Assembly (NCBI GenBank): GCA_020832545.1 | Contig: JAFIEK010000021.1 | Coordinates: 1 to 64,000 of the forward strand | Reading direction: 5' to 3' | DNA from: Pararhodobacter sp. | Lineage (GTDB): Bacteria > Pseudomonadota > Alphaproteobacteria > Rhodobacterales > Rhodobacteraceae | DNA length: 64,000 nt | Part shown: in pieces, positions 4,560-29,140 of the stretch | Layout of the letters: every line of letters begins with the position of its first letter | Numbering within the stretch: the stretch's first letter is position 1 | Program-made: the position numbers and the translations under genes | The notes under the pieces: model-generated | What the model was told of the DNA's origin: nothing | What the model saw: only the letters and a program-made list of their open reading frames with translations | The model's database searches: none

Positions 4560-5864
4560 ATGAAGATCATAATTCTGGGTTCGGGCGTCATCGGGGTGAC
4601 TTCGGCATGGTATCTGGCGCGGGCCGGCTTTGAAGTCGAGGTGATCGACCGTCAGCCCGACGTTGCGATGGAAACCTCGTTTGCCAATGCTGGCGAAATC
4701 AGCCCCGGCTATTCCTCGCCCTGGGCCGCGCCCGGCATCCCGCTCAAAGCGATCAAATGGATGTTCATGGAACATTCGCCCCTGATCATTCAACCGGGGA
4801 TGGACATGGCCAAACTGCGCTGGATGGCGCAAATGCTTGGCAATTGCACCAGCGCGGCTTATGCAGTGAACAAGGCGCGCATGGTGCGGTTGGCTGAGTA
4901 TTCGCGCGACTGCCTGACCGAGTTGCGCTCTCAGACCGGGATCAGCTTTGACGAGCGCCAGCAGGGAACGCTGCAGCTGTTCCGAACCCAGAAACAACTC
5001 GATGCCGCCGGAAAGGATATCGAAGTGCTGCGCGCGGGCGGCGTCGCGTTCGAACTTCTGGATGTCGCGGGCTGCCTTGCCGCCGAGCCGGGCCTGCGCG
5101 GATCGCAAGACCGGATCGTGGGCGGGCTGCGCCTGCCCGGTGACGAAACCGGTGATTGCTTGAAGTTCACCCAGGCGCTGGCAAGACGCGCCGCCGGGCT
5201 GGGGGTCACCTTCCGCCATGACACGACGATTACCCGCCTGAACATGGTTGAGGGTCGCGTGGCCTCGGTCACCACCACACAAGGCGAGATCACCGCGGAT
5301 GCCTTTGTCCTTGCGCTTGGCAGCTACTCACCCGCGCTGGTTGCGCCACTGGGCATGCATCTGCCTGTCTATCCGGTGAAGGGCTACTCCATCACGCTGC
5401 CCATCATCGACGAGGCGCGCGCGCCCGTTTCAACGGTGATGGACGAAACCCACAAGATTGCGATCACGCGGCTGGGCGACCGTATCCGGGTTGGTGGACT
5501 GGCCGAACTGGCCGGGTTCGATCTGACGCTGAATGACAAGCGGAAACGCACCTTGTTGCATTCCGTGCAAGCTTTGTTCGGCGGTGCCGGCGATACAACA
5601 AATGCCGAATTCTGGACCGGCCTCCGCCCGATGACCCCGGACGGCACGCCCGTGGTGGGGCGCTCGCCAGTGCCGAACCTGTTCATGAACACCGGTCACG
5701 GCACACTTGGCTGGACGATGGCGGCAGGCTCGGCGCGGGTTCTGACCGATATCGTTGCGGGCCGGGCAACCGAGATCGGCAGCACAGACCTGGGGTTCGA
5801 GCGGTATATGGGCCGGGCACGTCGCCCGCAATCTGTGCCTGGCCTTCGTCCGGCGGTGAGCTGA
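4560..5864 (+). CDS. dadA: D-amino acid dehydrogenase (small subunit type)
   Basis: DadA is a membrane-associated FAD enzyme that oxidises D-amino acids to 2-oxo acids and passes electrons to the respiratory chain. The 434-residue length is normal for the family. The N-terminal dinucleotide-binding motif (ILGSGVIGV, Gly8-x-Gly-x-x-Gly) is followed by IDRQP, where the acidic residue binds the ribose. The conserved [22 protein letters not shown] block and the C-terminal [17 protein letters not shown] / [12 protein letters not shown] block are characteristic of DadA. No alr or dadX lies next to it. In principle it could generate 2-ketoarginine from D-arginine and so feed the guanidino locus at 18-29 kb; that link is speculative. 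Confidence 0.93.
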
Positions 5865-6003
5865 CTGAGCGTCAGCCACATGTTTGACCGCAACTGATGC
5901 CCGCCTCCTGCTTTGGGGCGCACCCACCTGGTCCAGGTGTCGTCTCAGCCTTCCCGTGGCGCGCATCTGGCGCATTCTGGCCCTGCGTCAGACCGCCCGC
6001 GCC

Positions 6004-6444
6004 CTACCGATAACCGATGCCCATGACGTAGTCATAGAGCAAGCCCTCCTCCTGACGGACCTCCTGCAGAAGCGATTGCAGAATGTCGCTGGCATTCAGG
6101 ACACCAAGCGGCTTGCGCTCGGCGTCGAGCACAGGGATATTCTTCAGGCCATTGATCTTCATCAGGTTCCAAACCCCTTGCAACGGCTCTGTGGTCTCAA
6201 CGGCGATCGGGTCACGCGTCATCGCCTCAGTGACAGGTGCGGTGCAACTTGCACCCGCGCAGCGACCGGTCTGACGAACTATGTCCGTCTTTGTTAGAAC
6301 ACCCGCTATTCGTTCGCCCTCGTCGCAGACAACCAGCATGTTGCAGCCATCGTCGAGAAGTCGCGCAGCCTGCACCAGAGTGGAGCTCAGTCCGATGCAG
6401 CACAACCGCGCCCGGGCATGTGTCAGTAAATCCCGAACAAGCAT
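6004..6444 (-). CDS. Twin CBS-domain protein
   Basis: Two CBS domains fill the 146-residue protein. The first runs from MLVRDLLTHARARLCC to VLTKTDIVRQTG and the second from VTEAMTRDPIAVET to GVLNASDILQSLL. Between them, AGASCTAP carries a Cys. CBS pairs bind adenine nucleotides and usually sense energy or redox state. ATG at 6444 is chosen because GGAGGAGGCG lies directly before it; a longer frame begins at 6552. It is the last of three same-strand genes (6987 to 6004) that lead away from the nsrR region and could be co-transcribed. Confidence 0.85.
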   Translation of the reverse strand: MLVRDLLTHARARLCCIGLSSTLVQAARLLDDGCNMLVVCDEGERIAGVLTKTDIVRQTGRCAGASCTAPVTEAMTRDPIAVETTEPLQGVWNLMKINGLKNIPVLDAERKPLGVLNASDILQSLLQEVRQEEGLLYDYVMGIGYR

Positions 6445-6475: not shown

Positions 6476-6757
6476 TCATAAGGCCTCCGGACGCGCGCGC
6501 CGGGGCGCTCCGACCGGAAAGCGCGCCTGTTGCAATACCGCGCCTTGCGCATCCACCGTCAGCCGAAGGGCGCGGGCGTTGTGATAGAATGTGAGTCGGA
6601 ACCGACCGGCATCTTTGTCGAAACCGGTCTCACAGCGGCTGGTGATCTGACCCTCGCGTAGCATCACCGGCACATGGGCAGGGTCAAGTTTGAAGCCCGC
6701 CGCAATCACTTCGGCATCGACAGTGAAGCCATCCGGTGTGACATCCACCCCGCTCAT
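6476..6757 (-). CDS. DUF6522-like small protein
   Basis: The 93-residue protein has the pattern I associate with DUF6522: FTVDAEVIAAGFKLDPAHVP, then MLREGQITSRCETGFDKDAG, then RFRLTFYHNARALRLTVD. Function is unknown. Family members tend to occur near denitrification and nitric-oxide-response genes in Rhodobacteraceae, as here. The start overlaps the stop of the preceding gene by four bases (ATGA), so translation is probably coupled. A single Cys lies in the most conserved segment. Confidence 0.7.
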   Translation of the reverse strand: MSGVDVTPDGFTVDAEVIAAGFKLDPAHVPVMLREGQITSRCETGFDKDAGRFRLTFYHNARALRLTVDAQGAVLQQARFPVGAPRRARPEAL

Positions 6758-6987
6758 GCCCCATCGCGCCAGTAGGCGTTCGCGGCGGCAATCGTGGCGA
6801 AATGTGTGGCCACGACCTGTGACACGGCAATCAGCGCATCCGCATCAGCGGCGTATTCCGGGCGCATCCGCTCGCGCTCGGCGGCATCGGGCTGGGTCAG
6901 TTTGACTGCCACGCGCGCGAGTTTCACCGCAAGGTCATAGCCCTGCGCCGGGGTTTCGGTCTTGAGGCTTGGTAACCAGTTTTCCAT
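6754..6987 (-). CDS. Small conserved hypothetical protein coupled to the DUF6522 gene
   Basis: This 77-residue, largely helical protein begins MENWLPSLKTETPAQGYDLA and ends IAAANAYWRDGA, with no cysteines or membrane segment. The ATG at 6987 is preferred over one nine bases upstream because AAAGGA sits eight bases before it. It overlaps the next gene by ATGA and heads a three-gene minus-strand group with the DUF6522 and twin-CBS genes. I do not recognise a characterised family. Confidence 0.6.
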   Translation of the reverse strand: MENWLPSLKTETPAQGYDLAVKLARVAVKLTQPDAAERERMRPEYAADADALIAVSQVVATHFATIAAANAYWRDGA

Positions 6988-7146
6988 CAGGTGCATCCTT
7001 TGCTGCTTCTTGGTGGGAATATTTGAGCTTCACTGTGGCGATCATCGTTCGGCACCGTCCACGCCGCTGATCAACAGTGCGCCGAGACAGGCAGTTCCTT
7101 CACCTTGCGGTCCAGCATGGACGGCGTTGCGATCACGGCGCTTTCC

Positions 7147-7569
7147 TCAGGCTGCGCTGTAGTCAAGTGAAGCCAGCGCGATATCGGCCAGTGTCGAACG
7201 GTCAAGATCGGCCAGGAACGAGCGCTCGGCCGATCGCAGGCGCGACTTCAACCTGCAACATGCTTCAATCGTGCAGGAACTCTCACCAGTGCCGAAGCAT
7301 TCGACCAGCGCCTGCCCCTCTTCCAGCAGGCGCACCACCTCACCCAGCCGAATCCCTGTCGGATCACGTGCCAGCACCGCACCGCCCCCGCCGCCGCGCC
7401 GGGTTTCGACGATGCCACCACGCGCCAGACGCTGCATGATCTTGGTTAGGTGGTGGCGTGACAGGCCGAACTCCTCGGCCAGTTCCGAAGTGGAAAAGGC
7501 CACATTTGGCGCTGATGCCATGCGCATCAGCATCCGCAGGCCATAATCGGTGAAGGAGGTCAGGCGCAT
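7147..7569 (-). CDS. nsrR: NsrR-type Rrf2 transcriptional regulator (nitric oxide sensor)
   Basis: NsrR is a repressor whose Fe-S cluster is destroyed by nitric oxide, releasing NO-detoxification genes. The 140-residue product has the Rrf2 winged helix (RLTSFTDYGLRMLM, then FGLSRHHLTKIMQRLARGG at 35-52). Its three cluster cysteines are Cys91, Cys99 and Cys105, the C-x7-C-x5-C spacing of NsrR, with an additional Cys104. The gene diverges from an operon encoding a truncated haemoglobin and a hemerythrin-type repair protein, which is classic NsrR-regulon content. A 25-bp interrupted palindrome lies between them. The assignment is strong; the DNA target is inferred. Confidence 0.92.
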   Translation of the reverse strand: MRLTSFTDYGLRMLMRMASAPNVAFSTSELAEEFGLSRHHLTKIMQRLARGGIVETRRGGGGGAVLARDPTGIRLGEVVRLLEEGQALVECFGTGESSCTIEACCRLKSRLRSAERSFLADLDRSTLADIALASLDYSAA

Positions 7570-7589
7570 CGGAATTCCTTGGCTTGCTT

Positions 7590-7614
7590 GAATAAGTATT
7601 TACATTACTTATTC
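7590..7614. promoter_or_regulatory. Candidate NsrR operator between nsrR and the NO-response operon
   Basis: Two perfect 9-bp arms, GAATAAGTA (7590-7598) and TACTTATTC (7606-7614), flank a 7-base spacer. The site is about 20 bases from nsrR and 55 bases before the first operon gene, a position from which one repressor could control both directions. The centre reads GTATTT-A-CATTAC, partly matching the GTATTT-N-AAATAC pattern found upstream of ctaD. Confidence 0.7.
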
Positions 7615-7669
7615 AGTAGGAGTATCTTGCACAAGACAATTCGCGATCCATTCAGAAGGGAATGTCACC

Positions 7670-8041
7670 ATGACGGCAAGTCAGAAGCACCAGGGCATTG
7701 TCGAAGAGTTGCTTGGATACTGGCAGGGAGCAGGGCCGCTGTGGAAACTCTACTGGGTTTACGGGGTCGCGCTCAGCGCAATCGGCGGCGCCTTTATCTT
7801 GACGGCGGTCCTGATGGATGCTCTGCCCGTTCCGTTGCTGCTGGTCTGCATCGGAGCCATCTTGATCTATACGGGCTTCATTCTGGTCAGTATCTGGCGC
7901 AGCGCGTTCAACATTTCCACGGACCCTATGGGCATCGACCGCGAGGCCTGGGGTTGGATCGCGCGCGTTCTGACCTTTGGTTGGGCGCTCAATGCGGCCG
8001 GAGGATCGCTGATGCTGCTCCAGGTCGCCATGCATTACTGA
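7670..8041 (+). CDS. Small inner-membrane protein of the NO-response operon
   Basis: The 123-residue protein has three predicted membrane segments: about residues 22-48 (LYWVYGVALSAIGGAFILTA), 53-75 (VPLLLVCIGAILIYTGFILV) and 97-118 (VLTFGWALNAAGGSLML). There are no haem or metal motifs. It is the first gene after the nsrR operator, with AAGGGA eight bases before the ATG, and is followed after nine bases by the truncated haemoglobin gene. A role in nitrosative stress is inferred from position only; I do not recognise a characterised family. Confidence 0.75.
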   Translation: MTASQKHQGIVEELLGYWQGAGPLWKLYWVYGVALSAIGGAFILTAVLMDALPVPLLLVCIGAILIYTGFILVSIWRSAFNISTDPMGIDREAWGWIARVLTFGWALNAAGGSLMLLQVAMHY

Positions 8042-8050
8042 AAGTGACCA

Positions 8051-8506: not shown

Positions 8507-8513
8507 GGAAAGG

Positions 8514-9008: not shown

Positions 9009-9282
9009 TCGTCTTGCGTCATCAACGGGTCCTGCCCATGCGGGCCAGATCAGGGAAATGGCCCGCGGTCCGAGAGCGACTGTCATGAGTTTCTCGCAGG
9101 CGGTTTTTTCGGTCGGTGCGCAGGATGACCAGAGCAGTCCTGTGCTGACCATCAGCGGGCTGATCGCCGATCAGATTCTGGATGCACTCGTCCTTGCCCT
9201 TGAAACGCGTGGCCAGTCGGCTGGCCACGTTTGTGAATACCTGTGTCGGACAAAGGCGGTGATGCATGACACCCCCCGCTAA
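9001..9282 (+). CDS. Hypothetical ORF overlapping both neighbours
   Basis: This 93-codon frame starts inside the last codons of the hemerythrin gene and ends 17 bases inside the cyclo-ligase-like gene, bridging an otherwise empty 257-base gap in a tight operon. The central segment (SSPVLTISGLIADQILDALVLALETRG) looks protein-like. The first 25 codons and the last are not distinctive, and there is no clear ribosome-binding site. It may be a real coupled gene, possibly with a later start at Met29, or non-coding spacer. Confidence 0.4.
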   Translation: MPDRLASSTGPAHAGQIREMARGPRATVMSFSQAVFSVGAQDDQSSPVLTISGLIADQILDALVLALETRGQSAGHVCEYLCRTKAVMHDTPR

Positions 9283-12291: not shown

Positions 12292-12299
12292 TACCACAG

Positions 12300-14227: not shown

Positions 14228-14268
14228 GGTGTCCTCCTCAAAGTGATTTTTTAAAACGCGATGCGCGC

Positions 14269-18106: not shown

Positions 18107-18465
18107 AATATCAGCTACAAGCGTCACCGATTTCCGCCTCTGATCATGCACATGTCGTCTGACTCTACGCCTGGTTCAACTTGAGCCTTCGCGAAGTTGA
18201 AGAGATGATGCTGGAACGTGGCGTTGATGTTTCATTTGGGACCATCCGACGTTGGACCGTCAAGTTCGGCCCTCTGATTGCCCGCAGACTACGGCGCCGA
18301 CAGCCGCGCCCCGGGGATATTTGGCATTTGGATGAAGTAGTCGTGAAGATTGGGTGCCGGTCATACTGGCTTTGGCGGGCGGTCGATCAATACAGTGTCG
18401 TTCTTGAAGAAATCCCGCAGCCCAGACGGGGCAAGCGCGCAGCAAAGCGCCTTCTGAAACGCAAC
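18107..18465 (+). mobile_element. IS6-family transposase N-terminal fragment
   Basis: The translated pieces ISYKRHRFPP, then (after a frame change near 18160) LYAWFNLSLREVEEMMLERGVDVSFGTIRRW, FGPLIARRLRRRQPRPGDIWHLDEVVVKIG and YWLWRAVDQYSVVL...RRGKRAAKRLL are the N-terminal half of an IS6 DDE transposase. The first catalytic Asp lies in WHLDE. Homology stops at about 18465, where sequence belonging to the opposite-strand TPP-enzyme gene begins. The fragment is therefore fused to the tail of that gene, and the element's right part is missing. Confidence 0.85.
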
Positions 18466-20070
18466 CCGAAGATCATCACTGTAATGGACAAGCAAACATC
18501 CATCACTGTCAGAGGCCTCGGCAATGACAGTGGTCAGTTGCGCCGGGGTTGCTGCGGTTGCGACTGACCACCCGCAAGCGCGCGCGATTGCGGGCAGGTC
18601 GGGCGTCAGGATATCGACGCCAAGGGCGGGAACATTCAGCCTTTTCATCTCGGATTTGATCTCGCCATAGCCCTGATTGTCATAGAGCAGCATGATCACC
18701 TGCACCCCAGCCTCGATCGCGCTGGTCAGTTCTGCCAGCGTGAACTGTACGCCTCCGTCGCCTATCAGCGCGACAACAGGCTTGCCCTCAGCCAGAGCGG
18801 CGCCGATGGCGGCAGGCAGCCCGTAGCCCAGTGTGCCAAAGCCGGTGGCAGAGTTGAAATACCCCCCCGGACGGGACGATGCGAAGCCCAGATTGCCCGC
18901 ATAGACCGCCTGTGTGGAATCGCCAACGATAAGGGCATCGGTTAGGGTTTCGCGCACCCGCGCCAACAGCGCCAGATCACCCCGGATCGCCGGGTCCAGA
19001 CTGGCAAGCCCGGTCTGCGCCTGCGCGGCCCGCTCGGTACCCTGCCGGGGGGCTGAGGGTGTGATCGCCGCATGCAGGGCCTGAGCCGTCAGCGCGGCAC
19101 AGCCGATCAGGGCAAGCGTGGGTGGCCAGCCGCGTTGCGCCTGCGCCGGGTCGATATCGGCCCGGATCAGGGCGCCCGGAATGGCCAGGCCGCCATCCTC
19201 ATACATGTCGTAATCCGTCGGCCCCATCTCGGTCCCGATGGCGAGGACGACATCGGCATCGGCAATTAGCGCGCGGGTTTCGGGCATCGAGGCGCTGAGG
19301 GTGACGGCCAGCGGGTGGCCCGGTGGCAGTATGCCACGGGCATTCGTGCTCATGACCACCGGTGCATCCAGCGCTTCGGCCAGCGCGGGAAGACTTGTGG
19401 CGCTTAAAGCCCCGCCACCAGCCAGAATGACAGGGCTGCGCGCCCCGGCTAGAAGCATGGTTGCCTGTTCCAACAGCTGCGGGTCCGGCCCCGGGCGGGT
19501 GGTTCGCGCAGGGGCTTCGGGAACCGTCAGATGCCCGGCAGGCGCCAGCATCACATCGATGGGCAGTTCCAGATGCACGGGCCGGGGGCGGGCGCTGTCG
19601 AACACGGCAAAGGCCTCGGCCAGCGCGCCGGGCAGCTCCTCAGCCCGGTGAATGGTGCGGCTGAACGCGGCCACCCCAGCGACAAGGGCCTGTTGATTGG
19701 GCAATTCATGCAGCCACCCGGCGCCCGAACCCATGCGCCCATGGGCGTTGACCGTCGAGATCACCAGCATCGGCACCGAATCGCCATAGGCTTGGCCCAT
19801 GGGCGTCAGGATATTGGTCATCCCCGGCCCCGATATGATCAGGCAGACACCCGGCTTGCCGCTGGCGCGCGCATAGCCATCGGCCATGAAGCCCGCGCCC
19901 TGTTCATGGCGCGGCGTGACATGGCGGATACCGCTTCCCGCCAGCCCGCGATACAGCTCGATCGTATGCACACCAGGAATGCCGAAGACCGTATCGACAC
20001 CGTAAGCGGCGAGCAGTTTGATCAGATACATGCCTGTAGAAATCTGGCCTGCGGAAGTCTCGGTGTTCAT
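18361..20070 (-). CDS. TPP-dependent 2-oxo acid decarboxylase, 2-ketoarginine decarboxylase (AruI)-like, with altered C-terminus
   Basis: AruI decarboxylates 5-guanidino-2-oxopentanoate to 4-guanidinobutanal in the arginine transaminase route. This acetolactate-synthase-fold protein has the PYR-domain Glu56 in TPRHEQGAGFMADGYAR and the metal-TPP motif IGDGGVQF...LLYDNQGYG. Its N-terminal region (YGVDTVFGIPGVHTIELYRGLAGSGIRHV) resembles AruI more than biosynthetic acetolactate synthases. The ATG at 20070 overlaps the preceding permease stop by ATGA. The genuine sequence ends near codon 535 (CLLVHYSDDL). The last ~35 codons (RVAFQKAL...DRPPKPV) are antisense to an IS6 transposase fragment, so the natural end has been replaced. 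Activity may survive because the catalytic domains are complete. Confidence 0.78.
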   Translation of the reverse strand: MNTETSAGQISTGMYLIKLLAAYGVDTVFGIPGVHTIELYRGLAGSGIRHVTPRHEQGAGFMADGYARASGKPGVCLIISGPGMTNILTPMGQAYGDSVPMLVISTVNAHGRMGSGAGWLHELPNQQALVAGVAAFSRTIHRAEELPGALAEAFAVFDSARPRPVHLELPIDVMLAPAGHLTVPEAPARTTRPGPDPQLLEQATMLLAGARSPVILAGGGALSATSLPALAEALDAPVVMSTNARGILPPGHPLAVTLSASMPETRALIADADVVLAIGTEMGPTDYDMYEDGGLAIPGALIRADIDPAQAQRGWPPTLALIGCAALTAQALHAAITPSAPRQGTERAAQAQTGLASLDPAIRGDLALLARVRETLTDALIVGDSTQAVYAGNLGFASSRPGGYFNSATGFGTLGYGLPAAIGAALAEGKPVVALIGDGGVQFTLAELTSAIEAGVQVIMLLYDNQGYGEIKSEMKRLNVPALGVDILTPDLPAIARACGWSVATAATPAQLTTVIAEASDSDGCLLVHYSDDLRVAFQKALCCALAPSGLRDFFKNDTVLIDRPPKPV

Positions 20071-20882
20071 GCCCTGTCGCCTTTGTTGGAACGCATCTGC
20101 CAAGCGGTTCTACCAAGAATGACCGTCACTACCACCACGATCAGCACCACTGAAAGCGCTGCAATTGCCGGGTCTATATTGTCGCGCAGCCCCATCCACA
20201 TCAGGCGCGGCAGGGTCACGGCCTCTATCGAGGTGATGAACAATGTGACCGCGATTTCCTCCCACGACAGCACGAAGGTCAGAAACAGCGAAAGGACAAG
20301 GCTGAAACGGATGTTGGGCACAATAACCTTGAACACGCGCGTGCCCAGCCCCGCCCCCATCGAGCGCGCAGCCAGATCCATGCGCCGGTCGATCTGCGCC
20401 AGACCTACCGAGATAAGCACCACGGCAAAGGGCGACACCATCACCACATGCGCCATGACCACCCCGGCCCAGCGGTCATAGGCGATGAAATCGTTGAACT
20501 GCGACAGCGTCACCAGAAAGAAATACAGCGTCAGCGCCGAGACGACGGGCGGCGCCACCATGGGCAACAGCGCCAGCCCCATCAAGAGGCCGGTATGGCG
20601 CGGGCGCAGCATCCAGATGCCGATGGCAAAAGCCGCAGCAAGCGCGGTCGAGATCACCGCCGACACCACGCCCACCCGCACCGACAGCCATGCCCCCTGT
20701 CCCCAGAGCGGGTTTTCAATCAGCGCGCGGTAGTGGCGCAGCGACAGCTCGCCAGAGGGGATCGACAGAAACCGCGATGGCGTAAAGCTGACCGGTATCA
20801 CCGCTATCAGCGGCATCAGCAGAAACAGCGCCAGCAGGGCGGCAATGACACCGGCAAGAAGCCCGGGTTGAAGGCGAGTCAT
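20067..20882 (-). CDS. ABC transporter permease, PotC-type
   Basis: A 271-residue inner-membrane permease with six predicted membrane segments. The ATPase-coupling EAA loop, DLAARSMGAGLGTRVFKVIVPNI, lies near residue 170. Gene order (ATPase, binding protein, two permeases) and sequence type place it in the spermidine/putrescine (polyamine/opine) uptake family. It overlaps the first permease gene by four bases upstream and the TPP-enzyme gene by four bases downstream, so all three are probably co-translated. Confidence 0.9.
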   Translation of the reverse strand: MTRLQPGLLAGVIAALLALFLLMPLIAVIPVSFTPSRFLSIPSGELSLRHYRALIENPLWGQGAWLSVRVGVVSAVISTALAAAFAIGIWMLRPRHTGLLMGLALLPMVAPPVVSALTLYFFLVTLSQFNDFIAYDRWAGVVMAHVVMVSPFAVVLISVGLAQIDRRMDLAARSMGAGLGTRVFKVIVPNIRFSLVLSLFLTFVLSWEEIAVTLFITSIEAVTLPRLMWMGLRDNIDPAIAALSVVLIVVVVTVILGRTAWQMRSNKGDRA

Positions 20883-21700
20883 CGGGCGGTCCTTTCACCA
20901 AGCTGGCGCAGCATCAGCGCGATAAGCACGCCGACACCGGCCATCAGGACCACGCTCATCGCCGCTGCAAGGCCCCAGTTAGGGCTTTGGAACAGGCGCA
21001 GATAGATCAGCTCGGCCACCATCACGCTGCGCCCGCCGCCAAGGATGGCGGGGGTGATGAAAAAGCCCAGCGAAAAGACAAAGACCAGCAGCATGGCACC
21101 CATGATGCCGGGCCGCGTCATCGGCACGAAAAGCTGCCAGAAAATCCGCGTGCGCGAAGCACCCATGCTGCGCGCCGCCATCAGCACACGCTCATCGACA
21201 TTGCGCATGGCGGTAGCGATGGGAAAAACCGCAAAGGGGATCAGAAAATGAACCATCCCCACAACCACCCCGAATTCGTTGCGCACCATCACCAGCGGCC
21301 AGTCGATGATGCCCAGTTGCTGCAACCAGGTGTTGATCACGCCGCGGTTTGACAACAGCGCCAGCCAGCCGAAAGCACGGGTCAGAACCGAGATCCAGAA
21401 GGGAATGAGGATACACAGCTCCACCAGCAGCCGCGCCACCGGGCCGCTGCGCACCCAGATCAGCGCCAGCATATAGGCCGCCGCGACCGTGATTACCGTG
21501 ACCATCGCACAGATCCGCAAGGTTCGTATCAGAACGCTTTGCACCAAAGGATCGGTCAGCGCCGCGCGATACTGGTGCAGGCCCGGTTCAGGCAGTGTCA
21601 CGCTCCAGCGCATGACGCCCAGAAACGGGATCAGATAGGCCGCTGCCAGAAACAGCAAAAGCGGGCCCAGCAAAAGCATGTGGCGGCGGGTCATCGGCAT
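20879..21700 (-). CDS. ABC transporter permease, PotB-type
   Basis: The 273-residue partner permease has six predicted membrane segments and an EAA loop LMAARSMGASRTRIFWQLFVPM near residue 180. The N-terminus MTRRHMLLLGPLLLFLAAAYLIP is the first membrane segment. It lies 57 bases after the binding-protein gene and overlaps the second permease gene by four bases. The substrate is likely a cationic polyamine- or guanidine-like molecule by family and context. Confidence 0.9.
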   Translation of the reverse strand: MPMTRRHMLLLGPLLLFLAAAYLIPFLGVMRWSVTLPEPGLHQYRAALTDPLVQSVLIRTLRICAMVTVITVAAAYMLALIWVRSGPVARLLVELCILIPFWISVLTRAFGWLALLSNRGVINTWLQQLGIIDWPLVMVRNEFGVVVGMVHFLIPFAVFPIATAMRNVDERVLMAARSMGASRTRIFWQLFVPMTRPGIMGAMLLVFVFSLGFFITPAILGGGRSVMVAELIYLRLFQSPNWGLAAAMSVVLMAGVGVLIALMLRQLGERTAR

Positions 21701-21757: not shown

Positions 21758-22873
21758 TCACGCCGAGATGATGCCCAGATAGGTGTCGAGCGCGGCGCCG
21801 TAATGCTCTTCGTACCACGCCATATCAAGCGGGATCTGCACGGCGAAGTTTTCCGGGTCGACGGGATTGTAGCGCGCTTCCTCGGGCGGAAGCATGGCAT
21901 CGGCGGCGGGGTTGGCCGGGCCCTGCCCCAGCATGCGGAACATGACCAGCTGCTTTTCTGGATCCTGCGCCGAGGCGATGAATTGCATCGCCGCCTCGCT
22001 GCCGGCGGGATTGTTGGCCAGAACGCCCATTGCGCCCGGTGCGATCAGGCCGTCGTTCCAGATGAAGCCGATCTCGCCCTCTGAATCCTCTTCGATCAGT
22101 TTCGCACGGGTTGACCAGACCAGCGCCATCGACGCATCGCCATTCATAAGCAGCGCCTGACTGTCGGCACCCCCGCCCCAGAAGCCGATGACATGCTCTT
22201 TGAACGCCTCGATCTTGGCATGCGCGCGGTCCAGATCCAGCGGGTAAAGCTGGTCGCGCGGCACGCCATCGGCCAGAAGGGCCGCTTCCCACATGCCCGC
22301 GCCCCACTGATACATCGCGCGGCGGCCCGGATACTTTTCGACATCAAAGAAATCGGCCATGCTGGTGGGCGGGTTGTCGCCAAAGCGGCGCGCGTCATAG
22401 GCAATGATGTAGCTGTAGAAATACGACGAGGCCGAATAGTCCCAGCCAAAGCCCGGGCGCATCTTGTCGCGGTCAACGATATCGTAATCGATGGCGGTCA
22501 TCAGATCACGCTTGCCCAGCGTTTCGGCCGAGAACGGGTCAACATCCACCAGATCCCAGCTTGGCCGCCCGGTTTCAGCCTGCGCGGCAATCGCGCCCTC
22601 GGTCGGGCCAGAGCCATCCTGACGCACGACGATGCCGGTCTCTGCCTCAAACGCCTGACCATAGGCCGCGTCATAGGCGGGCCCCGCATCGCCACCCCAG
22701 TTGACGAAAACCAGCTGCCCGGGTTGCGCCTGCGCCGGGCCTGCGCGCAGCCCGACGGCACCCACACCCAGCATCATCATCAGCCCGGTCGCAAATTCCC
22801 GCCGCGAAATCTGGCCACGCTTCAGCCGCGTTTGCAGAATGTCCACCGCGTCACGTTGAAAAGGTCCGTTCAT
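21758..22873 (-). CDS. Periplasmic binding protein of the polyamine-type ABC transporter
   Basis: The 371-residue protein has a Tat-type signal (SRREFATGLMMMLGVGAVGL, residues ~23-42) ending in AQA-QP near residue 50. The mature part begins GQLVFVNWGGDAGPAYDAAYG, the typical opening of PotD/PotF-like extracytoplasmic binding proteins, and includes WDLVDVDPFSAETLG and MALVWSTRA. Tat export suggests folding in the cytoplasm. GGGAG precedes the ATG. It is the second gene of the five-gene operon (ATPase, binding protein, two permeases, decarboxylase). Confidence 0.9.
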   Translation of the reverse strand: MNGPFQRDAVDILQTRLKRGQISRREFATGLMMMLGVGAVGLRAGPAQAQPGQLVFVNWGGDAGPAYDAAYGQAFEAETGIVVRQDGSGPTEGAIAAQAETGRPSWDLVDVDPFSAETLGKRDLMTAIDYDIVDRDKMRPGFGWDYSASSYFYSYIIAYDARRFGDNPPTSMADFFDVEKYPGRRAMYQWGAGMWEAALLADGVPRDQLYPLDLDRAHAKIEAFKEHVIGFWGGGADSQALLMNGDASMALVWSTRAKLIEEDSEGEIGFIWNDGLIAPGAMGVLANNPAGSEAAMQFIASAQDPEKQLVMFRMLGQGPANPAADAMLPPEEARYNPVDPENFAVQIPLDMAWYEEHYGAALDTYLGIISA

Positions 22874-22946: not shown

Positions 22947-23987
22947 TCACAGCATGAATGCCCGCTCACTTGACCAGGTTGCCCAGATTTCGGTGCCGGG
23001 CGTCAGGCCATCGGCCAGGTCCGCCGTGGGGACCGACAAAACCAGCTCGGCCCCGCCTTCGGTGCGCAGGTTCAGCCGCGTCACCCCGCCCAGATAGGTC
23101 AGATCCCGCAGCCGGGCGGCGACGGCATTGCCGCTGGCGGGGGCCTCAAGGGCGATCCGCATGTATTCAGGCCGGATCGCCAGATCGCCGCTGGCCTTGC
23201 CGTTCACAGTAATCGCGCGGCCCTCAAGCGTGCTGTTCACAACCGGCAGGACATTGATATCGCCCAGAAATTCGGCCACAAAACGGTTTTCAGGCCGCTC
23301 ATAGATGTCGCGCGGCGGGCCGATCTGTTGCAGGCGGCCAGCGTCGAAAATGGCGATGCGGCTGGACAGGGTCAGCGCCTCTTCCTGATCATGGGTGACA
23401 AAGACAAAGGTTGTGCCGGTTTCACGGTGCAGGCGGCGCATTTCATCCTGCATCTGGGTGCGCAGGTTGCGATCAAGCGCCGAGAACGGCTCGTCAAACA
23501 GCATCACCGGCGGCTCATAGGCCAGCGCGCGGGCCAAGGCCACGCGCTGCTGCTGGCCGCCCGACAGCCCGGCGGGGCGTTTGTGGCGGTGTTCGCCCAA
23601 GCCCACGATCTCGATGATCTCGGCCACGCGGCGCTGTATCTCGGCACGCCCGCGCCGCTGGACCTTCAGCGGAAAGGCGATGTTTTCCTCGACGGTCATG
23701 TGCGGAAACAGCGCATAGCCCTGAAACACCATGCCAAAGCCGCGCTCTTCGGGGGGAATATCCGTCATGTCGCGGCCATCGAGCATCAGGCGGCCGGTGG
23801 TGGGCGGCTCGAACCCGGACAACACCATCAGAAACGTCGTCTTGCCTGATCCGGAAGGGCCAAGCAACGTCAGGAACTCGCCGCGTGCGATTGTCAGCGT
23901 GACATCGGTCAGCGCCTTGAAGGTGCCAAAGCTCTTGCCGATGCCTGTCGCATCGATTTCAGCCGCTTTGCCTGGTGATCCTGCCAT
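22947..23987 (-). CDS. ABC transporter ATPase, PotA-type
   Basis: A 346-residue ATPase with Walker A GPSGSGKT (~43-50), Q-loop VFQGYALFPHMTVEENIAFPL, signature LSGGQQQRVALARAL, Walker B VMLFDEPFSALD and H-loop VTHDQEEAL, followed by a C-terminal TOBE-like domain (RPEYMRI...YLGGVTRLNLRTEGG). This is the PotA/FbpC layout. GGGGAGCAG immediately precedes the ATG. It heads the operon running away from the LysR gene, whose stop is 69 bases upstream. Confidence 0.92.
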   Translation of the reverse strand: MAGSPGKAAEIDATGIGKSFGTFKALTDVTLTIARGEFLTLLGPSGSGKTTFLMVLSGFEPPTTGRLMLDGRDMTDIPPEERGFGMVFQGYALFPHMTVEENIAFPLKVQRRGRAEIQRRVAEIIEIVGLGEHRHKRPAGLSGGQQQRVALARALAYEPPVMLFDEPFSALDRNLRTQMQDEMRRLHRETGTTFVFVTHDQEEALTLSSRIAIFDAGRLQQIGPPRDIYERPENRFVAEFLGDINVLPVVNSTLEGRAITVNGKASGDLAIRPEYMRIALEAPASGNAVAARLRDLTYLGGVTRLNLRTEGGAELVLSVPTADLADGLTPGTEIWATWSSERAFML

Positions 23988-24056: not shown

Positions 24057-25001
24057 TCATGGCAACCGAAAATCCTTCGCTCTTTTGTGAAACGAAATTT
24101 GCCGTTCAGCCCCGGCACCCTCTTCGGCCAGCTCGGCGCGCAGCCAGTCTCGAAAGGCGGCGCTGGCCGGGTTGCCGGTTTTTTCCGATGGCATGACAAC
24201 GTAATAGGATTTCGCCGATTGCACCGCCAGATCAAAGGGCCGCACCAGTTTGCCGTCGGCCATCGCCTGCTGGCAGATGAACCTGTCGCCCATCGCCACG
24301 CCCTGCGCGGCCAGCGCCGCAGCATAGACCATGTTCATGTCTGAAAAGCAGACCCCACGCTTTGCCGCCGCGACGGGCAGACCCGCCACACGAAACCATG
24401 CCTCCCAATCGCTATGATCGTTCAGATGCAACAGTTCGACGCCGCGAAGCGCTTCGGGCCCCTCCAACCCGCCGATCCGGTTGAGCAGGATGGGGCTGCA
24501 AACCGGCACAAAATCAACCTCCTTGAGCAGTTCCACATCCATCCCCGGCTGTTCGCGAAAGCCGAAGGTGATGAACAGATCAACATCAGGATTGCTGACA
24601 TCATCCAGCCTGCGCGGTGACACAACGCTGACGGAAACATCCGGAAAAGCCCGCGAAAAGCCGCCGATCCGGGGGCACAGCCAGGAAGACGCAATCCCCG
24701 GCGGGCAGCTGACGACAAGCGCGCCGCTTACCCCGCGCGATGCATTGCGAAGCGCCGCGCCCGAGATCGTTGCCAGCGCGTGGCGCACCTCGTTGGCATA
24801 GGACAGCCCCTGCGGCGTCAGTTCAACCCGCGTACCCACCCGGTTCATCAGCCGGAACCCAAGCGTGTATTCAAGCAGGCGCAGCTGATGGCTGACCGCG
24901 CTGCGCGTCAGGTTCAGCTCTTCCGCCGCCTGCCAGACAGTGCCGTGGCGGGCAAAACATTCGAGCGCGCGCAGCGCCTGGGTCGATGGGATACGCGGCA
25001 T
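24057..25001 (-). CDS. LysR-family regulator (GcvA-like) of the guanidino locus
   Basis: The N-terminal helix-turn-helix (ALRALECFARHGTVWQAAEELNLTRSAVSHQLRLLE) is followed by a GcvA-type effector domain (SGALVVSCPPGIASSWLCPRI, VCSPILL, AALAAQGVAMGDRFI). ATG 25001 has GGAGG four bases upstream; longer in-frame starts are unlikely. It lies between the transporter operon, read in the same direction, and the divergent M20/amidinohydrolase/FAD-dehydrogenase operon, so it probably controls one or both. The 176-base divergent gap is AT-richer and contains GTGAA and TTCAC copies 27 bases apart. Confidence 0.9.
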   Translation of the reverse strand: MPRIPSTQALRALECFARHGTVWQAAEELNLTRSAVSHQLRLLEYTLGFRLMNRVGTRVELTPQGLSYANEVRHALATISGAALRNASRGVSGALVVSCPPGIASSWLCPRIGGFSRAFPDVSVSVVSPRRLDDVSNPDVDLFITFGFREQPGMDVELLKEVDFVPVCSPILLNRIGGLEGPEALRGVELLHLNDHSDWEAWFRVAGLPVAAAKRGVCFSDMNMVYAAALAAQGVAMGDRFICQQAMADGKLVRPFDLAVQSAKSYYVVMPSEKTGNPASAAFRDWLRAELAEEGAGAERQISFHKRAKDFRLP

Positions 25002-25177: not shown

Positions 25178-26803
25178 TTGCACCCCAATGACTCGCCTGA
25201 TGCCCCGCAAACCGCTTTCACCGCCGCTCAGGGCAGCGCGCTGAAGCATATTGAAGCGCAGCGCGCCGCTTTGTCCGACTGGTGCGCCACAATTTTCGAT
25301 TTCGGTGAAACCGCCTGGCGCGAATACCGCTCTTGCGCATGGTATGTTGCACGGTTGCGGGAAGAAGGGTTTTCCGTTGAGGAGGGCTCGGCGGGGATGG
25401 ACACGGCTTTTTGCGCCGAATGGCACAACAGCCCCTGTGGCCCCGGCCCGGTGATTGGCCTTTATGCGGAATATGACGGCATTCCGGGCAATTGTCAGGC
25501 CGCCGAGCCCCGGCGCGCGCCCCGCTCCGGGCTGGGCTATCAGGCCGGGGGCCATACCGACCCGCATTCCGGGCTGGGTATTGCCGGGCTTGGCGCCGCG
25601 CTGGCGATCAAGGCGGCGATGGTGCGCCATGGCATTCCCGGCGGCATCCGGTTTACCGGCGAGCCGGCAGAAAAGCTCCGCGGCTCCAAGCCGATCCATG
25701 CGGCGAAGGGCTATTATGACGGGCTGGCCGCGATCCTGTCGTTCCATCCGTTCTACATGCTGCCGATGTGCAATACCGTGCGCTGGGATACGCATTGCGG
25801 TGCGGGCTATGCGATGGTCTATCGCTTTTTGTGCGATGCGCCTGAAAAATGGGCAGCCCAGGACGGCGCACCCATTCCGCAGGCACACAGCATGGTGCGT
25901 GCGCCCGGCGCGGGTGAGGCGCTGAACCTGATGTTCACCGCCAGCAAGGCTCTGCGCGATTCGGTTCTGACCCATCAAGGCGGCTGGACGATATCCGAGG
26001 CAGTGCTGACCCACGGGCAGGCCACCGCCGACAACCAGCCCGCCGGTCTGGCCGAGCTGCAATACATGATCCGGGTGCCGACGCTGGCGATGGCCGATGC
26101 CGTTACCGCCGCCCTTGATCGCAACGCCGAAGCGGCGGCCCTGATGACCGGTTGCCGGTGGGAGCGCCACTGGGTGTCCAAATCGCGCCCCGGTCTGGCC
26201 AACCACGCCATGGCGGGCATGGTCTGGGAAAACCTCAAGCAGCTTGGCGCGCCGCAGTGGAATGACGCGGCGCGCGATACCGCCCGCGCGATCCAACGTG
26301 AGCTGGGCTTGGTGCCGATGGATGACCCTTTCATCCCCGAGATGTCGCGCCTGACCGACCCGCAAAGTGCCGAGGCCGCGCTGCGCCGGGATCTGCCGCC
26401 CTCGCAAAGCCATTCCACCTCGGACGATTACACCGATATGTGCTGGCACGCCCCCACCGCGCGGTTCTATATCGCCCGCCCCGCGCTGCGCGCGCCTGCG
26501 GGTTTTGCCTATCCGGCCTGGGTGATGAACGCACTCGGCGGCATCCCGGCCACGATTGACCCGATGGTTGAACGCGCGGCACAGGTGCTCGCGGTTTCCG
26601 GGCTGAAGGTGCTGGAAGACAGCGCGCTGCGCACCCGCGCCATGGATGAGTTCACTGAACGTACCGGCGGCGGCATCGGCGGCAGCGACTGGATAGCGCC
26701 ACTGTGCGATTATGACCCGCCGCTGCATTTCCGCTGGCCGGAATATGTCACCACCCCGCGCGGCCACGACTGGTGGATTCCGGCCACCATGCCGGGGGCC
26801 TGA
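25178..26803 (+). CDS. M20-family amidohydrolase (AbgB-like)
   Basis: M20 enzymes hydrolyse amide bonds of N-acyl amino acids and small peptides with a di-metal site. This 541-residue protein resembles the AbgB branch: PGPVIGLYAEYDGIPGNCQ near residue 90, GHTDPHSGLGIAGLGAALAIK carrying metal-binding His residues, FTGEPAEKLRGSKP with the catalytic Glu region, and SFHPFYMLPM, then a dimerisation domain and SHSTSDDYTDMCW. The start is TTG at 25178, supported by GAGGAGCGACC just upstream and by the lack of a better ATG. A C-terminal segment ending PRGHDWWIPA is conserved in AbgB-like proteins. Its role may be to release a guanidino acid from an acylated form. Confidence 0.85.
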   Translation: MHPNDSPDAPQTAFTAAQGSALKHIEAQRAALSDWCATIFDFGETAWREYRSCAWYVARLREEGFSVEEGSAGMDTAFCAEWHNSPCGPGPVIGLYAEYDGIPGNCQAAEPRRAPRSGLGYQAGGHTDPHSGLGIAGLGAALAIKAAMVRHGIPGGIRFTGEPAEKLRGSKPIHAAKGYYDGLAAILSFHPFYMLPMCNTVRWDTHCGAGYAMVYRFLCDAPEKWAAQDGAPIPQAHSMVRAPGAGEALNLMFTASKALRDSVLTHQGGWTISEAVLTHGQATADNQPAGLAELQYMIRVPTLAMADAVTAALDRNAEAAALMTGCRWERHWVSKSRPGLANHAMAGMVWENLKQLGAPQWNDAARDTARAIQRELGLVPMDDPFIPEMSRLTDPQSAEAALRRDLPPSQSHSTSDDYTDMCWHAPTARFYIARPALRAPAGFAYPAWVMNALGGIPATIDPMVERAAQVLAVSGLKVLEDSALRTRAMDEFTERTGGGIGGSDWIAPLCDYDPPLHFRWPEYVTTPRGHDWWIPATMPGA

Positions 26804-26829: not shown

Positions 26830-27753
26830 ATGAACCTGCAGACCCAAACCGAGCCCTTCACCCTTCAGCGCCGCAACCCCGGCGGCGGCACCGCGCCGCT
26901 GAAGCGCTGGGGTTTTGCGAATGAGACTGACCGGCTGACCGATGTGCTTCTGGGCAGCCCCGCGCATCTGAAACATCTCGCCACCTCCAGCCTGTCGCGC
27001 AAGCATCTGCGCGAGGCGCCGTGCAACATTCAGGTGGCACAGGCCCAGCATGCCGAACTGGTTGCCGCCTATCAGCATTTCGGCGTCAAGGTGCATATGC
27101 ATGAGGCAGCACCAGAGCTGCCGATGCAGGTTTATGCCCGCGATTCCAGTGTCATGACCCCATATGGCGCGGTGATCACCGCGATGGCACAATGGTGGCG
27201 GCGCGGCGAGAATTATGCGGCCATCCGTACCTATGAGAAGCTGGGCATTCCGATCTATGACATGGTGACGGCAGGCACGTTTGAGGGCGGCGATTTCGCC
27301 GTGATCGAAGAGGGTTGCGTGCTGATTGGCTGCGGCGGGGCGCGCACCCAGGAAGAAGGCGCGCGCCAGGTCGCGGCCTGGTTCGAGGCCGAGGGATGGG
27401 AAGTCCGCATCGCCTTCATCGATGAATATTACGTGCATATCGACCTGATGGTAGTGCCGATTGCCGACAAGCTGACCGCCGTGTGCGAAACCTGCACCGA
27501 CCCTGCGATTGTTGACTGGCTCAAGGGCAAGGGTCATGAAATCATCGATGTGCCGTTTCAGGACACCATGGCGCTGGGGTGCAACTTTATGTCGCTGGGC
27601 GGTGACCGCGTCATTGCGCCAACCTCGTCACAGGCGCTGATCGGCAAGTTGCGCGCGCGGGGGTTTGAGGTGGCGGATGTGGAGATGTCGGAGATTTCGA
27701 AAACCGGCGGGGGCATCCATTGCATGGCCCAGTCGCTGAAGCGGCAGGCATGA
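26830..27753 (+). CDS. Amidinotransferase-superfamily hydrolase (DDAH/arginine-deiminase-like)
   Basis: The superfamily attacks guanidinium carbons with a catalytic Cys. In this 307-residue protein the expected residues are in place: Arg104-Asp105 (VYARDSSV), Glu152 and Asp155 (FEGGDF), His203-x-Asp205 (YVHIDLM) and Cys298 (GGGIHCMAQ). This pattern fits dimethylargininases and related guanidino hydrolases rather than glycine amidinotransferase, but the substrate cannot be fixed from sequence. The product would be citrulline- or ureido-type. AAGGA lies before the ATG. It lies 26 bases after the M20 gene and 28 bases before the FAD-dehydrogenase gene, in one operon. Confidence 0.88.
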   Translation: MNLQTQTEPFTLQRRNPGGGTAPLKRWGFANETDRLTDVLLGSPAHLKHLATSSLSRKHLREAPCNIQVAQAQHAELVAAYQHFGVKVHMHEAAPELPMQVYARDSSVMTPYGAVITAMAQWWRRGENYAAIRTYEKLGIPIYDMVTAGTFEGGDFAVIEEGCVLIGCGGARTQEEGARQVAAWFEAEGWEVRIAFIDEYYVHIDLMVVPIADKLTAVCETCTDPAIVDWLKGKGHEIIDVPFQDTMALGCNFMSLGGDRVIAPTSSQALIGKLRARGFEVADVEMSEISKTGGGIHCMAQSLKRQA

Positions 27754-27781
27754 ACGGGGCTGTCCGGTGTCTGGAGGGCAC

Positions 27782-29140
27782 ATGCTTGAAGAATTGCGCG
27801 CGGCATTGGGCCCCGCCGGGTGCCTGACGGGCGCCGACATCCCTGAAGCCGCGCGCTCAGACGCCAGCCGGTCCGGACACGCGCTGCCGCTGGCCTTGCT
27901 GCGCCCGGCCTCGGTCAGCGAGGTTTCGGCGGCGCTGACCATCTGCCACCGGCATGGCGTGCCGGTGGTGCCACAGGGCGGCATGACCGGGCTTGCGGGC
28001 GGGGCAAACCCTGATCCGGCCTCGGTCGCGCTGTCACTGTCGCGGCTGAGCGGTGTGGAAGAGATCGACGCCGAGGGGATGGCCATGGTGGTGCGCGCCG
28101 GGACCGTGCTGGAGACGGCGCAGGGAGCGGCGGAGGAAGCCGGGTTCCTGCTGCCCATCGATATGGGTGCGCGCGGATCTTGCCAGATCGGCGGGAATAT
28201 CGCCACCAATGCGGGCGGGCTGCGGGTACTCCGCGACGGCATGACCCGCGACAACCTGCTGGGGATCGAGGTGGTGCTTGCCGATGGCACGGTGCTGACC
28301 CGGCTGACAAAAGAGGTGAAAAACAATACTGGCTATGATCTGCGCCATCTCTTTGCCGGGTCTGAGGGTACGCTGGGGGTGATCACCCGCGCCGTAATCC
28401 GGCTGCGCCCGCTGCCCACCCCACGCCGCACCGCGCTGGCTGCCCTGCCGGATTTTGCCGCCGTGCTGCGCCTGTTGCATCTGGCACGTGCGCAGCTTCC
28501 CGGCCTTTCCGCGTTCGAGGCGATGTGGGACGACTATTTCGCCTTCAGCCAGTACCTGCTGCCCTATACGCTGTTCACAGATCCGCCGCCTTTTGCCGTC
28601 ATCCTTGAAGCGCCCGATGACCCCGCTTTCGACACACTGCTGGAACAGGCGCTTGAGGAAGGCGTGATCCTTGATGCCCTGATCGCACAATCGCTCAATG
28701 ATGCGCGCCGTTTCTGGACCCTGCGCGAAGGCGAGGCGATCGATGCGGCGCTGCCCGGGCTGATCAATCTTGACATCAGCCTCGCCACCCGTCGGCTGGA
28801 CGAGTTTGCCTGCCGCTGCCGGGCTGACCTGCTGGCCCGTTTTCACGGCGCGCATGTATCGTTCTTTGGTCATATCGCCGACAGCAACCTGCATGTCGCG
28901 GTCTGCCTTGCCGGTGGGGGCGATGCGGCGGAGATCCATGAAGTGGATGCAGTCGTCTATGGGCTTGTGCGCGAGTTCGGCGGCTCGATATCGGCGGAAC
29001 ACGGCGTCGGCATACTGAAGCGCGACTGGCTGGGCCATAGCCGGAGTGCTGCGGAACTTTCCGCCATGCAGGCGATCAAGGCCACGCTTGACCCGAAGGG
29101 AATACTGAACCCCGGCAAGGTGTTTGCGGCTTCTGCCTGA
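27782..29140 (+). CDS. FAD-linked 2-hydroxy acid dehydrogenase (GlcD-like)
   Basis: The N-terminal PCMH-type FAD domain (VVPQGGMTGLAGGANP, IGGNIATNAGGLRVLRDG, NNTGYDLRHLFAGSEGTLGVIT) and C-terminal FAD-oxidase domain (VSFFGHIADSNLHV, FGGSISAEHGVGILKRDWL) define the D-lactate/glycolate/D-2-hydroxyglutarate dehydrogenase family. It oxidises D-2-hydroxy acids to 2-oxo acids. ATG 27782 with GGAGG four bases upstream is preferred over a GTG at 27767. In this locus it could oxidise a 2-hydroxy guanidino acid such as argininate to the 2-oxo acid that an AruI-like decarboxylase would use; this is inference from context. Confidence 0.87.
   Translation: MLEELRAALGPAGCLTGADIPEAARSDASRSGHALPLALLRPASVSEVSAALTICHRHGVPVVPQGGMTGLAGGANPDPASVALSLSRLSGVEEIDAEGMAMVVRAGTVLETAQGAAEEAGFLLPIDMGARGSCQIGGNIATNAGGLRVLRDGMTRDNLLGIEVVLADGTVLTRLTKEVKNNTGYDLRHLFAGSEGTLGVITRAVIRLRPLPTPRRTALAALPDFAAVLRLLHLARAQLPGLSAFEAMWDDYFAFSQYLLPYTLFTDPPPFAVILEAPDDPAFDTLLEQALEEGVILDALIAQSLNDARRFWTLREGEAIDAALPGLINLDISLATRRLDEFACRCRADLLARFHGAHVSFFGHIADSNLHVAVCLAGGGDAAEIHEVDAVVYGLVREFGGSISAEHGVGILKRDWLGHSRSAAELSAMQAIKATLDPKGILNPGKVFAASA

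Follow-up and report, generated by a model that had tools for sequence, protein, structure and literature searches.

What might an alphaproteobacterium use a gene cluster for that joins an ATP-binding cassette (ABC) transporter to several enzymes of arginine-like chemistry? We addressed this question for a locus at 18.4–29.1 kb of a 64,000-nucleotide stretch of Pararhodobacter sp. (contig JAFIEK010000021.1, positions 1 to 64,000; hereafter, the window). A first-pass annotation had read its nine open reading frames (ORFs), with dadA farther upstream, as a candidate catabolic pathway of a guanidino acid; all ten genes were present at the positions it gave (Table 1 for the nine). Seven of the nine form a core that is common to many soil and water alphaproteobacteria and that probably serves the import and breakdown of an arginine-like compound. 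The reading that we favor, tentatively, is a transferable uptake-catabolism island for a guanidino acid that carries no free amino group, to which an accessory argininate/2-ketoarginine route would supply 4-guanidinobutyrate.

The evidence for the core comes from its recurrence. A genome scan with the window's protein related to dimethylarginine dimethylaminohydrolase (DDAH) returned 280 relatives, and the best 80 loci, 48 of them titled Mesorhizobium, were fetched; being the best of 280 from a single-protein query, they are skewed to close relatives. A neighborhood was regarded as long enough if it held at least 9 kb before and at least 5 kb after the DDAH-like gene (65 of the 80; 15 short-flank loci were dropped), and matches of neighborhood genes that covered less than half of the query were discarded. 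The complete core, that is, the ATPase, the binding protein, two permeases, the LysR regulator, the M20-type hydrolase and the DDAH-like hydrolase, was found in 65/65 long-enough loci, spanning Rhizobiales and Rhodobacteraceae. Since the same seven genes are together in every one of them, the arrangement is not a matter of chance. The core can also be read from the existing annotation of plasmid records of Pararhizobium, Phyllobacterium and Roseovarius, and in a plasmid record of Rhizobium sp. RCAM05350 several core genes appear split into shorter frames. Within Rhodobacteraceae, 29 of 248 genomes had a DDAH-like relative at E ≤ 1e-40, six of which (window included) were at least 84% identical. 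Median identity to the window over the 80 loci, which had been chosen by the DDAH-like protein, and with matches below 45% identity dropped, was 85.7% for that protein and 53–71% for the other core proteins; in loci so selected, the DDAH-like protein appears to be the most conserved member. The families that flank the core (c8, c14, c20, c43, c52 and others) looked, by eye, like ordinary flanking genes. Core conservation thus supports the proposal of a conserved catabolic neighborhood built on a guanidino-type Cys hydrolase.

The same loci do not bear out a fixed unit of six enzymes acting as one pathway, as had been proposed, because the decarboxylase (which depends on thiamine pyrophosphate, TPP) and the GlcD-type dehydrogenase (which uses flavin adenine dinucleotide, FAD) are optional. 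Among the 65 core loci, the decarboxylase gene was present in 14, GlcD in 17, and an LldD-type oxidase dependent on flavin mononucleotide in 11, always with GlcD; 47 loci had none of the three. Decarboxylase and GlcD occurred together in 13 loci, the decarboxylase by itself in one, GlcD by itself in four, and neither in 47 (Fisher test over 65 loci, p = 1.9e-9, uncorrected for descent). The window's locus has both, without LldD, and no Mesorhizobium locus has either. Since the core lacks the decarboxylase in most sampled loci, decarboxylase and dehydrogenases are an add-on to the core. In Phyllobacterium T1018, a different FAD oxidoreductase (41% identical to GlcD) stands in the place of the decarboxylase. 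The best match of GlcD in the PDB was 3pm9, followed by mitochondrial D-2-hydroxyglutarate dehydrogenase (6lpn). We also noted a gamma-glutamyltransferase gene after GlcD in Pararhizobium qamdonense (L034, 17774–19519); ORFs of the same cluster follow in L092, L096, L097 and L109.

Next, we considered what the core hydrolase might accept. The DDAH-like protein scored 89.0, 87.7 and 75.9 bits against DDAH models, far below their cut-offs of 340, 300 and 450, and 41.2 and 50.8 bits against the arginine deiminase (ADI) models TIGR01078 and NF002381 (cut-offs 489.1 and 414). In an alignment with Pseudomonas aeruginosa DDAH, residues D66, E114, H162 and C249 of the latter corresponded to D105, E152, H203 and C298, R85 and R132 to R124 and R172, and D60 to Met99. 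We take D66, E114, H162 and C249 to be the catalytic and guanidinium-binding residues, R85 and R132 to bind the carboxylate, and D60 to contact the alpha-amino group; arginine deiminases have Asn at the position of Asp60. The window's enzyme therefore shares with the DDAH/ADI family the catalytic Cys-His-Glu and the guanidinium- and carboxylate-binding residues, and differs in having Met for the amino-binding Asp/Asn and in its low scores. All seven residues were invariant in a close set of 14 sequences. In a wider alignment of 51 rows (the window, relatives, this genome's own paralogue counted twice, and P. aeruginosa DDAH), D105, E152, H203, C298 and R124 were kept in every row and R172 in 50. 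The Met99 column held Met in 15 rows (the window and its 14 closest relatives), Tyr in 16, Arg in 11, Phe in 3, Lys in 2, and Asp in 4, namely L066, the own paralogue (counted twice) and DDAH. Because Asp is also replaced in most of the distant relatives, its loss characterizes most of the wider subfamily and not the core alone. The AlphaFold model of this protein (mean pLDDT, the predicted local distance difference test, 51.5) was not used. Three records annotate the protein as "dimethylarginine dimethylaminohydrolase family protein"; its residues argue against that substrate and would call for a corrected annotation. A clade at 57–62% identity (six loci fetched) has its gene between pheS and pheT in L049–L052 (four genomes from the window's bacterial family, gene 58–62% identical to the window's), not in L053 or L054. 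This is an unexpected place for a guanidino hydrolase, and we saw no catabolic context at the loci of this clade (Pfam scan for L049 and L054 only).

The solute-binding protein has changed in a comparable way. Its closest solved relatives were the receptor Atu4243 (4eq7, 4euo) for gamma-aminobutyric acid (GABA) and two GABA sensors; receptors for mannopine, agropine and spermidine ranked lower. In iGABASnFR2, the GABA site consists of W9, T13, F100, Y102, W202, R205, D228 and Y264, and D228 hydrogen-bonds the amino group of GABA (PMC12999171). The window equivalents are, in this order, W59, A63, Y151, Y153, W253, R256, G280 and Q317. Across 83 binding proteins, a set that includes three contigs under two ids each (L044/L078, L045/L076, L046/L086), W59, A63, Y151, W253, R256 and G280 were invariant; position 153 was occupied by Phe (60 proteins) or Tyr (23), and 82 proteins had Gln at position 317. 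Compared with Atu4243 and Pf622 (iGABASnFR), therefore, the protein keeps the Arg and the two Trp residues of this site, and has exchanged the amino-binding Asp for Gly and Thr for Ala (83/83), and Tyr264 for Gln (82/83). Beside the site, where the GABA sensor chain has Ser12, all 83 proteins have Asp62. We infer that R205 (R256 here) binds the carboxylate. The D228-to-G280 change reads as loss of the contact to a primary amine, and alone it does not indicate a guanidine. Both the binding protein and the hydrolase of the island thus seem to have lost their free-amino contact, and these residue changes suggest that a substrate with a free amino group is disfavored. A useful parallel is PA4985, encoded close to the AruSR genes: this binding protein prefers GABA and 5-aminovalerate, and it showed no L-arginine binding (PMC11113362).

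The accessory decarboxylase matches the family named "5-guanidino-2-oxopentanoate decarboxylase" (NF005712) well above its cut-off, in line with the earlier assignment as AruI-like. Acetolactate synthase was rejected as its identity (TIGR00118, 253.4 bits, cut-off 538.35). A P. aeruginosa copy (L155) scored higher on NF005712 than the window's enzyme (883.5 bits), so a match to this family does not by itself prove AruI function. A FastTree phylogeny of 23 sequences (L037, with genes that appear broken into shorter frames, was left out) placed the enzymes of core loci in one clade (support 1.00) and those of Caballeronia, P. aeruginosa, Roseateles and Psychrobacter in another (0.98). The P. aeruginosa record holds an agmatinase gene (passing the TIGR01230 cut-off), 3.5 kb farther on the decarboxylase gene (53% identical), and then an FAD-binding oxidoreductase gene (41% identical to GlcD), all within 7.5 kb; we take this stretch to be the gbuA region, PA1416–PA1421. 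It resembles the window's locus in that a decarboxylase adjoins an FAD oxidoreductase near a guanidino-hydrolase gene, and differs in its agmatinase-family guanidino removal, in its transporters, and in that the stretch shown carries no annotated M20 or DDAH-like gene. Roseateles has the genes in the order agmatinase, decarboxylase, aldehyde dehydrogenase. These agmatinase-linked contexts lend support to a guanidino-oxo acid decarboxylase that an FAD dehydrogenase can feed. The idea that an FAD dehydrogenase takes the place of the aminotransferase in feeding the AruI-like enzyme is partly upheld: the decarboxylase co-occurs with 2-hydroxy-acid dehydrogenases rather than an aminotransferase (GlcD is present in 13 of the 14 core loci with the decarboxylase), and the P. 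aeruginosa pair lies near an agmatinase-family gene; on the other side, a second AruI-like gene of this genome adjoins an aminotransferase gene.

The assignment of the remaining core enzyme as an M20 amidohydrolase held for its predicted fold, which matches M20 structures, and not at the level of profiles: its score against TIGR01891 lies below the cut-off of 153.75, and no Pfam match was obtained at E ≤ 0.001. The AlphaFold model has a mean pLDDT of 67.5, with 162 of 541 residues below 50, including parts of the motif regions 122–127 and 411–434. Its best Foldseek match was HmrA (E 1.1e-12, query template-modeling score 0.48, root-mean-square deviation 10.6); other top matches were human PM20D2 (a beta-alanyl-lysine dipeptidase), N-acylglutamine aminoacylase and 5-nitroanthranilate aminohydrolase. 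The motifs GHTDPH, PAEK and SFHP were present in 19/19 sequences (duplicate contig L045/L076 included), down to 50% identity and including Arthrobacter. The usual metal-site motifs of M20D enzymes are HACGH and PAEE. Thus, the window's enzyme shares its overall fold with M20D amidohydrolases (HmrA, PM20D2, AbgB-type) and differs from them in GHTDPH and PAEK; the Lys of PAEK takes the place of a Glu that binds the metal in related enzymes. Ten plasmid records carried an M20 relative at ~50% identity, and in three of the four inspected (L069–L072) a decarboxylase relative (38–54% identical) was near, so the association of the two may be older than the core; the records in which both relatives occur are of Shinella, Arthrobacter and Sinorhizobium. 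As to the make-up of these clusters, those of Shinella and Sinorhizobium join the M20 subfamily to an AruI-like decarboxylase, a carbamoylase, a polysaccharide-deacetylase-type gene, an aminotransferase and a class II aldolase, and that of Arthrobacter joins it to a D-2-hydroxy-acid-dehydrogenase-like gene, an Amidohydro_3 gene, a decarboxylase and a succinate-semialdehyde dehydrogenase.

From the gene order, conservation, protein families and residue changes that we observed, we infer the following substrates and order of steps. Under LysR control, the GABA-receptor-like ABC transporter would import a carboxylate without a free amino group. The DDAH-like Cys hydrolase would then attack the guanidinium group, converting guanidino to ureido with release of ammonia, and the M20 enzyme, acting after or before this step, would cleave a C-N amide or ureido bond, so that an omega-amino acid such as GABA could enter general metabolism. 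The accessory pair, which this genome shares with about one-fifth of the sampled core loci (13/65), would extend the range: the FAD dehydrogenase may oxidize a 2-hydroxy acid (argininate) to 2-ketoarginine, the AruI-like enzyme may decarboxylate 2-ketoarginine to 4-guanidinobutyraldehyde, and an unlinked dehydrogenase may yield 4-guanidinobutyrate, the most likely core substrate. A minority of relatives offers an analogy. Four carbamoylase queries were run against 24 loci whose DDAH relatives are distant or lie outside the core; seven loci had a match (L038, L039, L059, L062, L065, L068 and L071, of which L062 and L068 seem to be a single 181,257-base replicon) and 17 had none. In the rhizobial loci L039, L064 and L065, an amidase gene precedes the DDAH relative, with a divergent class III aminotransferase gene and a 3-keto-5-aminohexanoate cleavage gene. 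Such carbamoylase/amidase-aminotransferase layouts would fit a conversion of guanidino via ureido to omega-amino acids; coming from a minority of relatives, they are an analogy and not evidence on the window's enzymes.

The best known comparison is the arginine transaminase pathway of P. aeruginosa, in which AruH and AruI are followed by guanidinobutyrase. Shared with it are an AruI-type enzyme for the decarboxylation of a 5-guanidino-2-oxo acid and, presumably, 4-guanidinobutyrate as an intermediate. By contrast, the window's locus has an FAD 2-hydroxy-acid dehydrogenase, a DDAH-like hydrolase and an M20 enzyme in place of an aminotransferase and a ureohydrolase, and binding-protein-dependent uptake is encoded in the operon of the decarboxylase. 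Family profiles detected no AruH-type aminotransferase among the nine locus genes to accompany the decarboxylase, and no arginase-family (PF00491) gene at the locus; the PF00491 matches of this genome sit on three other contigs. A more specific proposal is that deimination and ureido hydrolysis, by an amino-blind DDAH-family enzyme and an M20 enzyme with an altered metal site, replace guanidinobutyrase in a route widespread in alphaproteobacteria and fed with argininate through the FAD dehydrogenase and the AruI-like decarboxylase. We consider this whole scheme unlikely.

Several observations weigh against the favored reading of the island, or against parts of it. In L048, one of the six Rhodobacteraceae genomes at 84% identity or more, a DDAH-like gene 84% identical to the window's occurs without any other core gene; it is the last of five same-strand genes (9822–15532) after SBP_bac_3, two BPD_transp_1 and ABC_tran genes, that is, an amino-acid-type transporter, with no M20 gene, and its product has the same Met99. 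The DDAH-like enzyme can therefore function in the absence of M20 and alongside a different transporter, and it is possible that it acts independently of M20 on an amino-acid-like substrate. The M20 model appears nearer to dipeptidases and aminoacylases than to carbamoylases (amidases of the hydantoinase/carbamoylase family and ureidoglycolate hydrolase ranked 37th and lower among the best 50 fold matches), and L069, L071 and L072 have a separate hydantoinase/carbamoylase gene (TIGR01879, over cut-off) beside M20; for both reasons, a ureidase role of M20 is doubtful. That the binding protein has lost an acidic residue is not what one would expect for a cationic ligand, unless Asp62 stands in for it. 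The nine locus genes include no aldehyde dehydrogenase or transaminase, as judged by family profiles. As for the accessory pair, its association is weaker outside Mesorhizobium (25 long-enough loci: 13 with both, one with the decarboxylase only, four with GlcD only, seven with neither; p = 0.007, uncorrected for descent); the split of the two decarboxylase clades from the rest, aminotransferase-linked enzymes included, had a support of just 0.69; and a GlcD relative at 59% is found by itself after a sulfate ABC operon (L162), which weakens GlcD as a marker of the substrate. The AruI homologue IlvB1 of Sinorhizobium meliloti had sevenfold higher activity on 5-amino-2-oxopentanoate (PMC7268258). 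Lastly, the usual AruI-aminotransferase arrangement also appears elsewhere in this genome (L063, G000:C88:23001-33966): at 6607–10861, a second AruI-like gene (~50% identical) follows an aminotransferase gene, a TetR-like gene (by eye) and an ADI-family gene, and adjoins apparent amino-acid ABC genes (by eye), a layout similar to that annotated in Phaeobacter and Sulfitobacter plasmids (L160, L161).

A close rival would be an island for N-acyl-arginine or a dipeptide-like amide that contains arginine, in which the imported arginine has its alpha-amino group blocked by an acyl group, the DDAH-like enzyme makes acyl-citrulline or M20 deacylates first, and the optional hydroxy-acid dehydrogenases and decarboxylase handle a 2-hydroxyacyl part or the freed arginine skeleton. 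A blocked amino group fits both residue changes equally well as the reading we favor, and the predicted M20 fold, nearest to HmrA, PM20D2 and N-acylglutamine aminoacylase, suits this substrate better. GlcD and the LldD-type oxidase occur together in 11/65 loci, as would be required if the hydroxyacyl part could have either configuration, and gamma-glutamyltransferase is next in line in L034. We nevertheless regard it as somewhat unlikely, since the binding protein is most like receptors of small GABA-like acids (though mannopine and agropine receptors were also listed), the decarboxylase family is named for a guanidino-oxo acid, and its close pair lies near an agmatinase-family gene. A literature search on a cyanophycin dipeptide as the substrate yielded nothing useful. 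Ordinary catabolism of arginine or methylarginine, with a dimethylarginine or arginine hydrolase behind a new transporter, would explain membership of the DDAH/ADI family, the AruI-like enzyme and the 84% identical gene after the amino-acid-type transporter in L048, and the second AruI cluster of this genome keeps arginine chemistry possible. This explanation is improbable in our view, because the hydrolase scores far below the DDAH cut-offs and has Met at the amino-binding position, and the locus lacks an aminotransferase while this genome carries, elsewhere, an AruI-aminotransferase-ADI-family cluster in which the ADI-family protein keeps the Asp.

We give still less weight to the two remaining alternatives. 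M20 might turn 4-guanidinobutyramide into 4-guanidinobutyrate for deimination by the DDAH-like enzyme, with the ureido acid handled elsewhere; an amidase gene does precede a distant DDAH relative in three rhizobial records, and the M20 fold suits small amides. However, that amidase is annotated as a different family, and the binding protein retains a putative carboxylate-binding Arg whereas the amide has no carboxylate, which makes this route very unlikely. It is likewise highly improbable that the compound is not a guanidine at all and that the DDAH-like enzyme acts on another group, as does 2-nitroimidazole nitrohydrolase, with the decarboxylase and GlcD treating an unrelated 2-hydroxy acid. 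That nitrohydrolase is among the weak PDB matches, and the acidic residue has been lost in the binding protein; against this, the Asp and Glu positions that we take to bind the guanidinium are kept in 51/51 rows, and the co-traveling decarboxylase matches a guanidino-oxo acid family.

Table 1. Genes of the locus, with the profile or structure matches that assign them.
Gene	Position	Strand	Match
AruI-like TPP-dependent 2-oxo acid decarboxylase (TPP; optional module)	18361..20070	-	NF005712 717.5 bits, cut-off 500
PotC-like ABC permease (PermC; core)	20067..20882	-	PF00528 (BPD_transp_1)
PotB-like ABC permease (PermB; core)	20879..21700	-	PF00528 (BPD_transp_1)
Solute-binding protein (SBP_bac_8; core)	21758..22873	-	best PDB match 4eq7/4euo, E 1.5e-55
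PotA-like ABC ATPase (core)	22947..23987	-	PF00005, PF08402
GcvA-like LysR regulator, divergent to M20 (core)	24057..25001	-	PF00126, PF03466
M20-fold amidohydrolase, uncharacterized subfamily (core)	25178..26803	+	TIGR01891 92.9 bits (below cut-off); motifs GHTDPH/PAEK/SFHP
DDAH/ADI-family Cys guanidino hydrolase (core)	26830..27753	+	PF19420, PF02274
GlcD/D-2-hydroxyglutarate-dehydrogenase-like FAD 2-hydroxy-acid dehydrogenase (optional module)	27767..29140	+	PF01565, PF02913

The genes of the locus likely form two divergent operons, given the ATGA overlaps on the minus strand (PermB/PermC and PermC/TPP, where the ATG of the decarboxylase gene reaches 4 bp into the PermC stop) and the short gaps on the plus strand (26 bp between M20 and the DDAH-like gene, 13 bp between the latter and GlcD). 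The product of dadA (4560–5864) is clearly a D-amino acid dehydrogenase (691.6 bits on NF001933, cut-off 383). This gene had been suggested to feed the same pathway, for which we found no support: there was one weak match (28%, L122) in 120 loci (L034–L153), most of which extend ~10 kb to either side of the DDAH gene, a span in which a dadA at 21 kb, its distance here, would go unseen. Between dadA and the catabolic locus lie two related IS110-type transposase genes (15459–16172, which looks partial, and 16542–17579), whose DNA is 72–74% alike in the longest repeats.

Judged by titles and abstract openings among the matches listed, the open-access literature yielded no description of this bacterial locus, which is real and conserved and, as far as searched, looks undescribed as a unit, although its enzymes belong to known families. 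Guanidino acids, argininate and 4-guanidinobutyrate among them, are known metabolites, and the seven-gene island, conserved in rhizobia and Rhodobacteraceae, offers concrete candidate genes.

Elsewhere in the window, the locus is adjoined by peptide/nickel-type ABC genes (30465–37533; SBP_bac_5, NikB/DppB-like permease) with another GcvA-like LysR gene. A possible second catabolic operon (39720–48510) comprises genes for an acyl-CoA dehydrogenase, an HpcH/CitE-like lyase, a CaiB-type CoA-transferase, an HMG-CoA-lyase-like protein and a tripartite ATP-independent periplasmic (TRAP) transporter, with a LysR gene (42513–43493) within it. Finally, 54082–62586 encodes a 2834-residue protein with GH94, glucoamylase-like and glycosyltransferase domains, an architecture that we take to be that of cyclic beta-1,2-glucan synthases.

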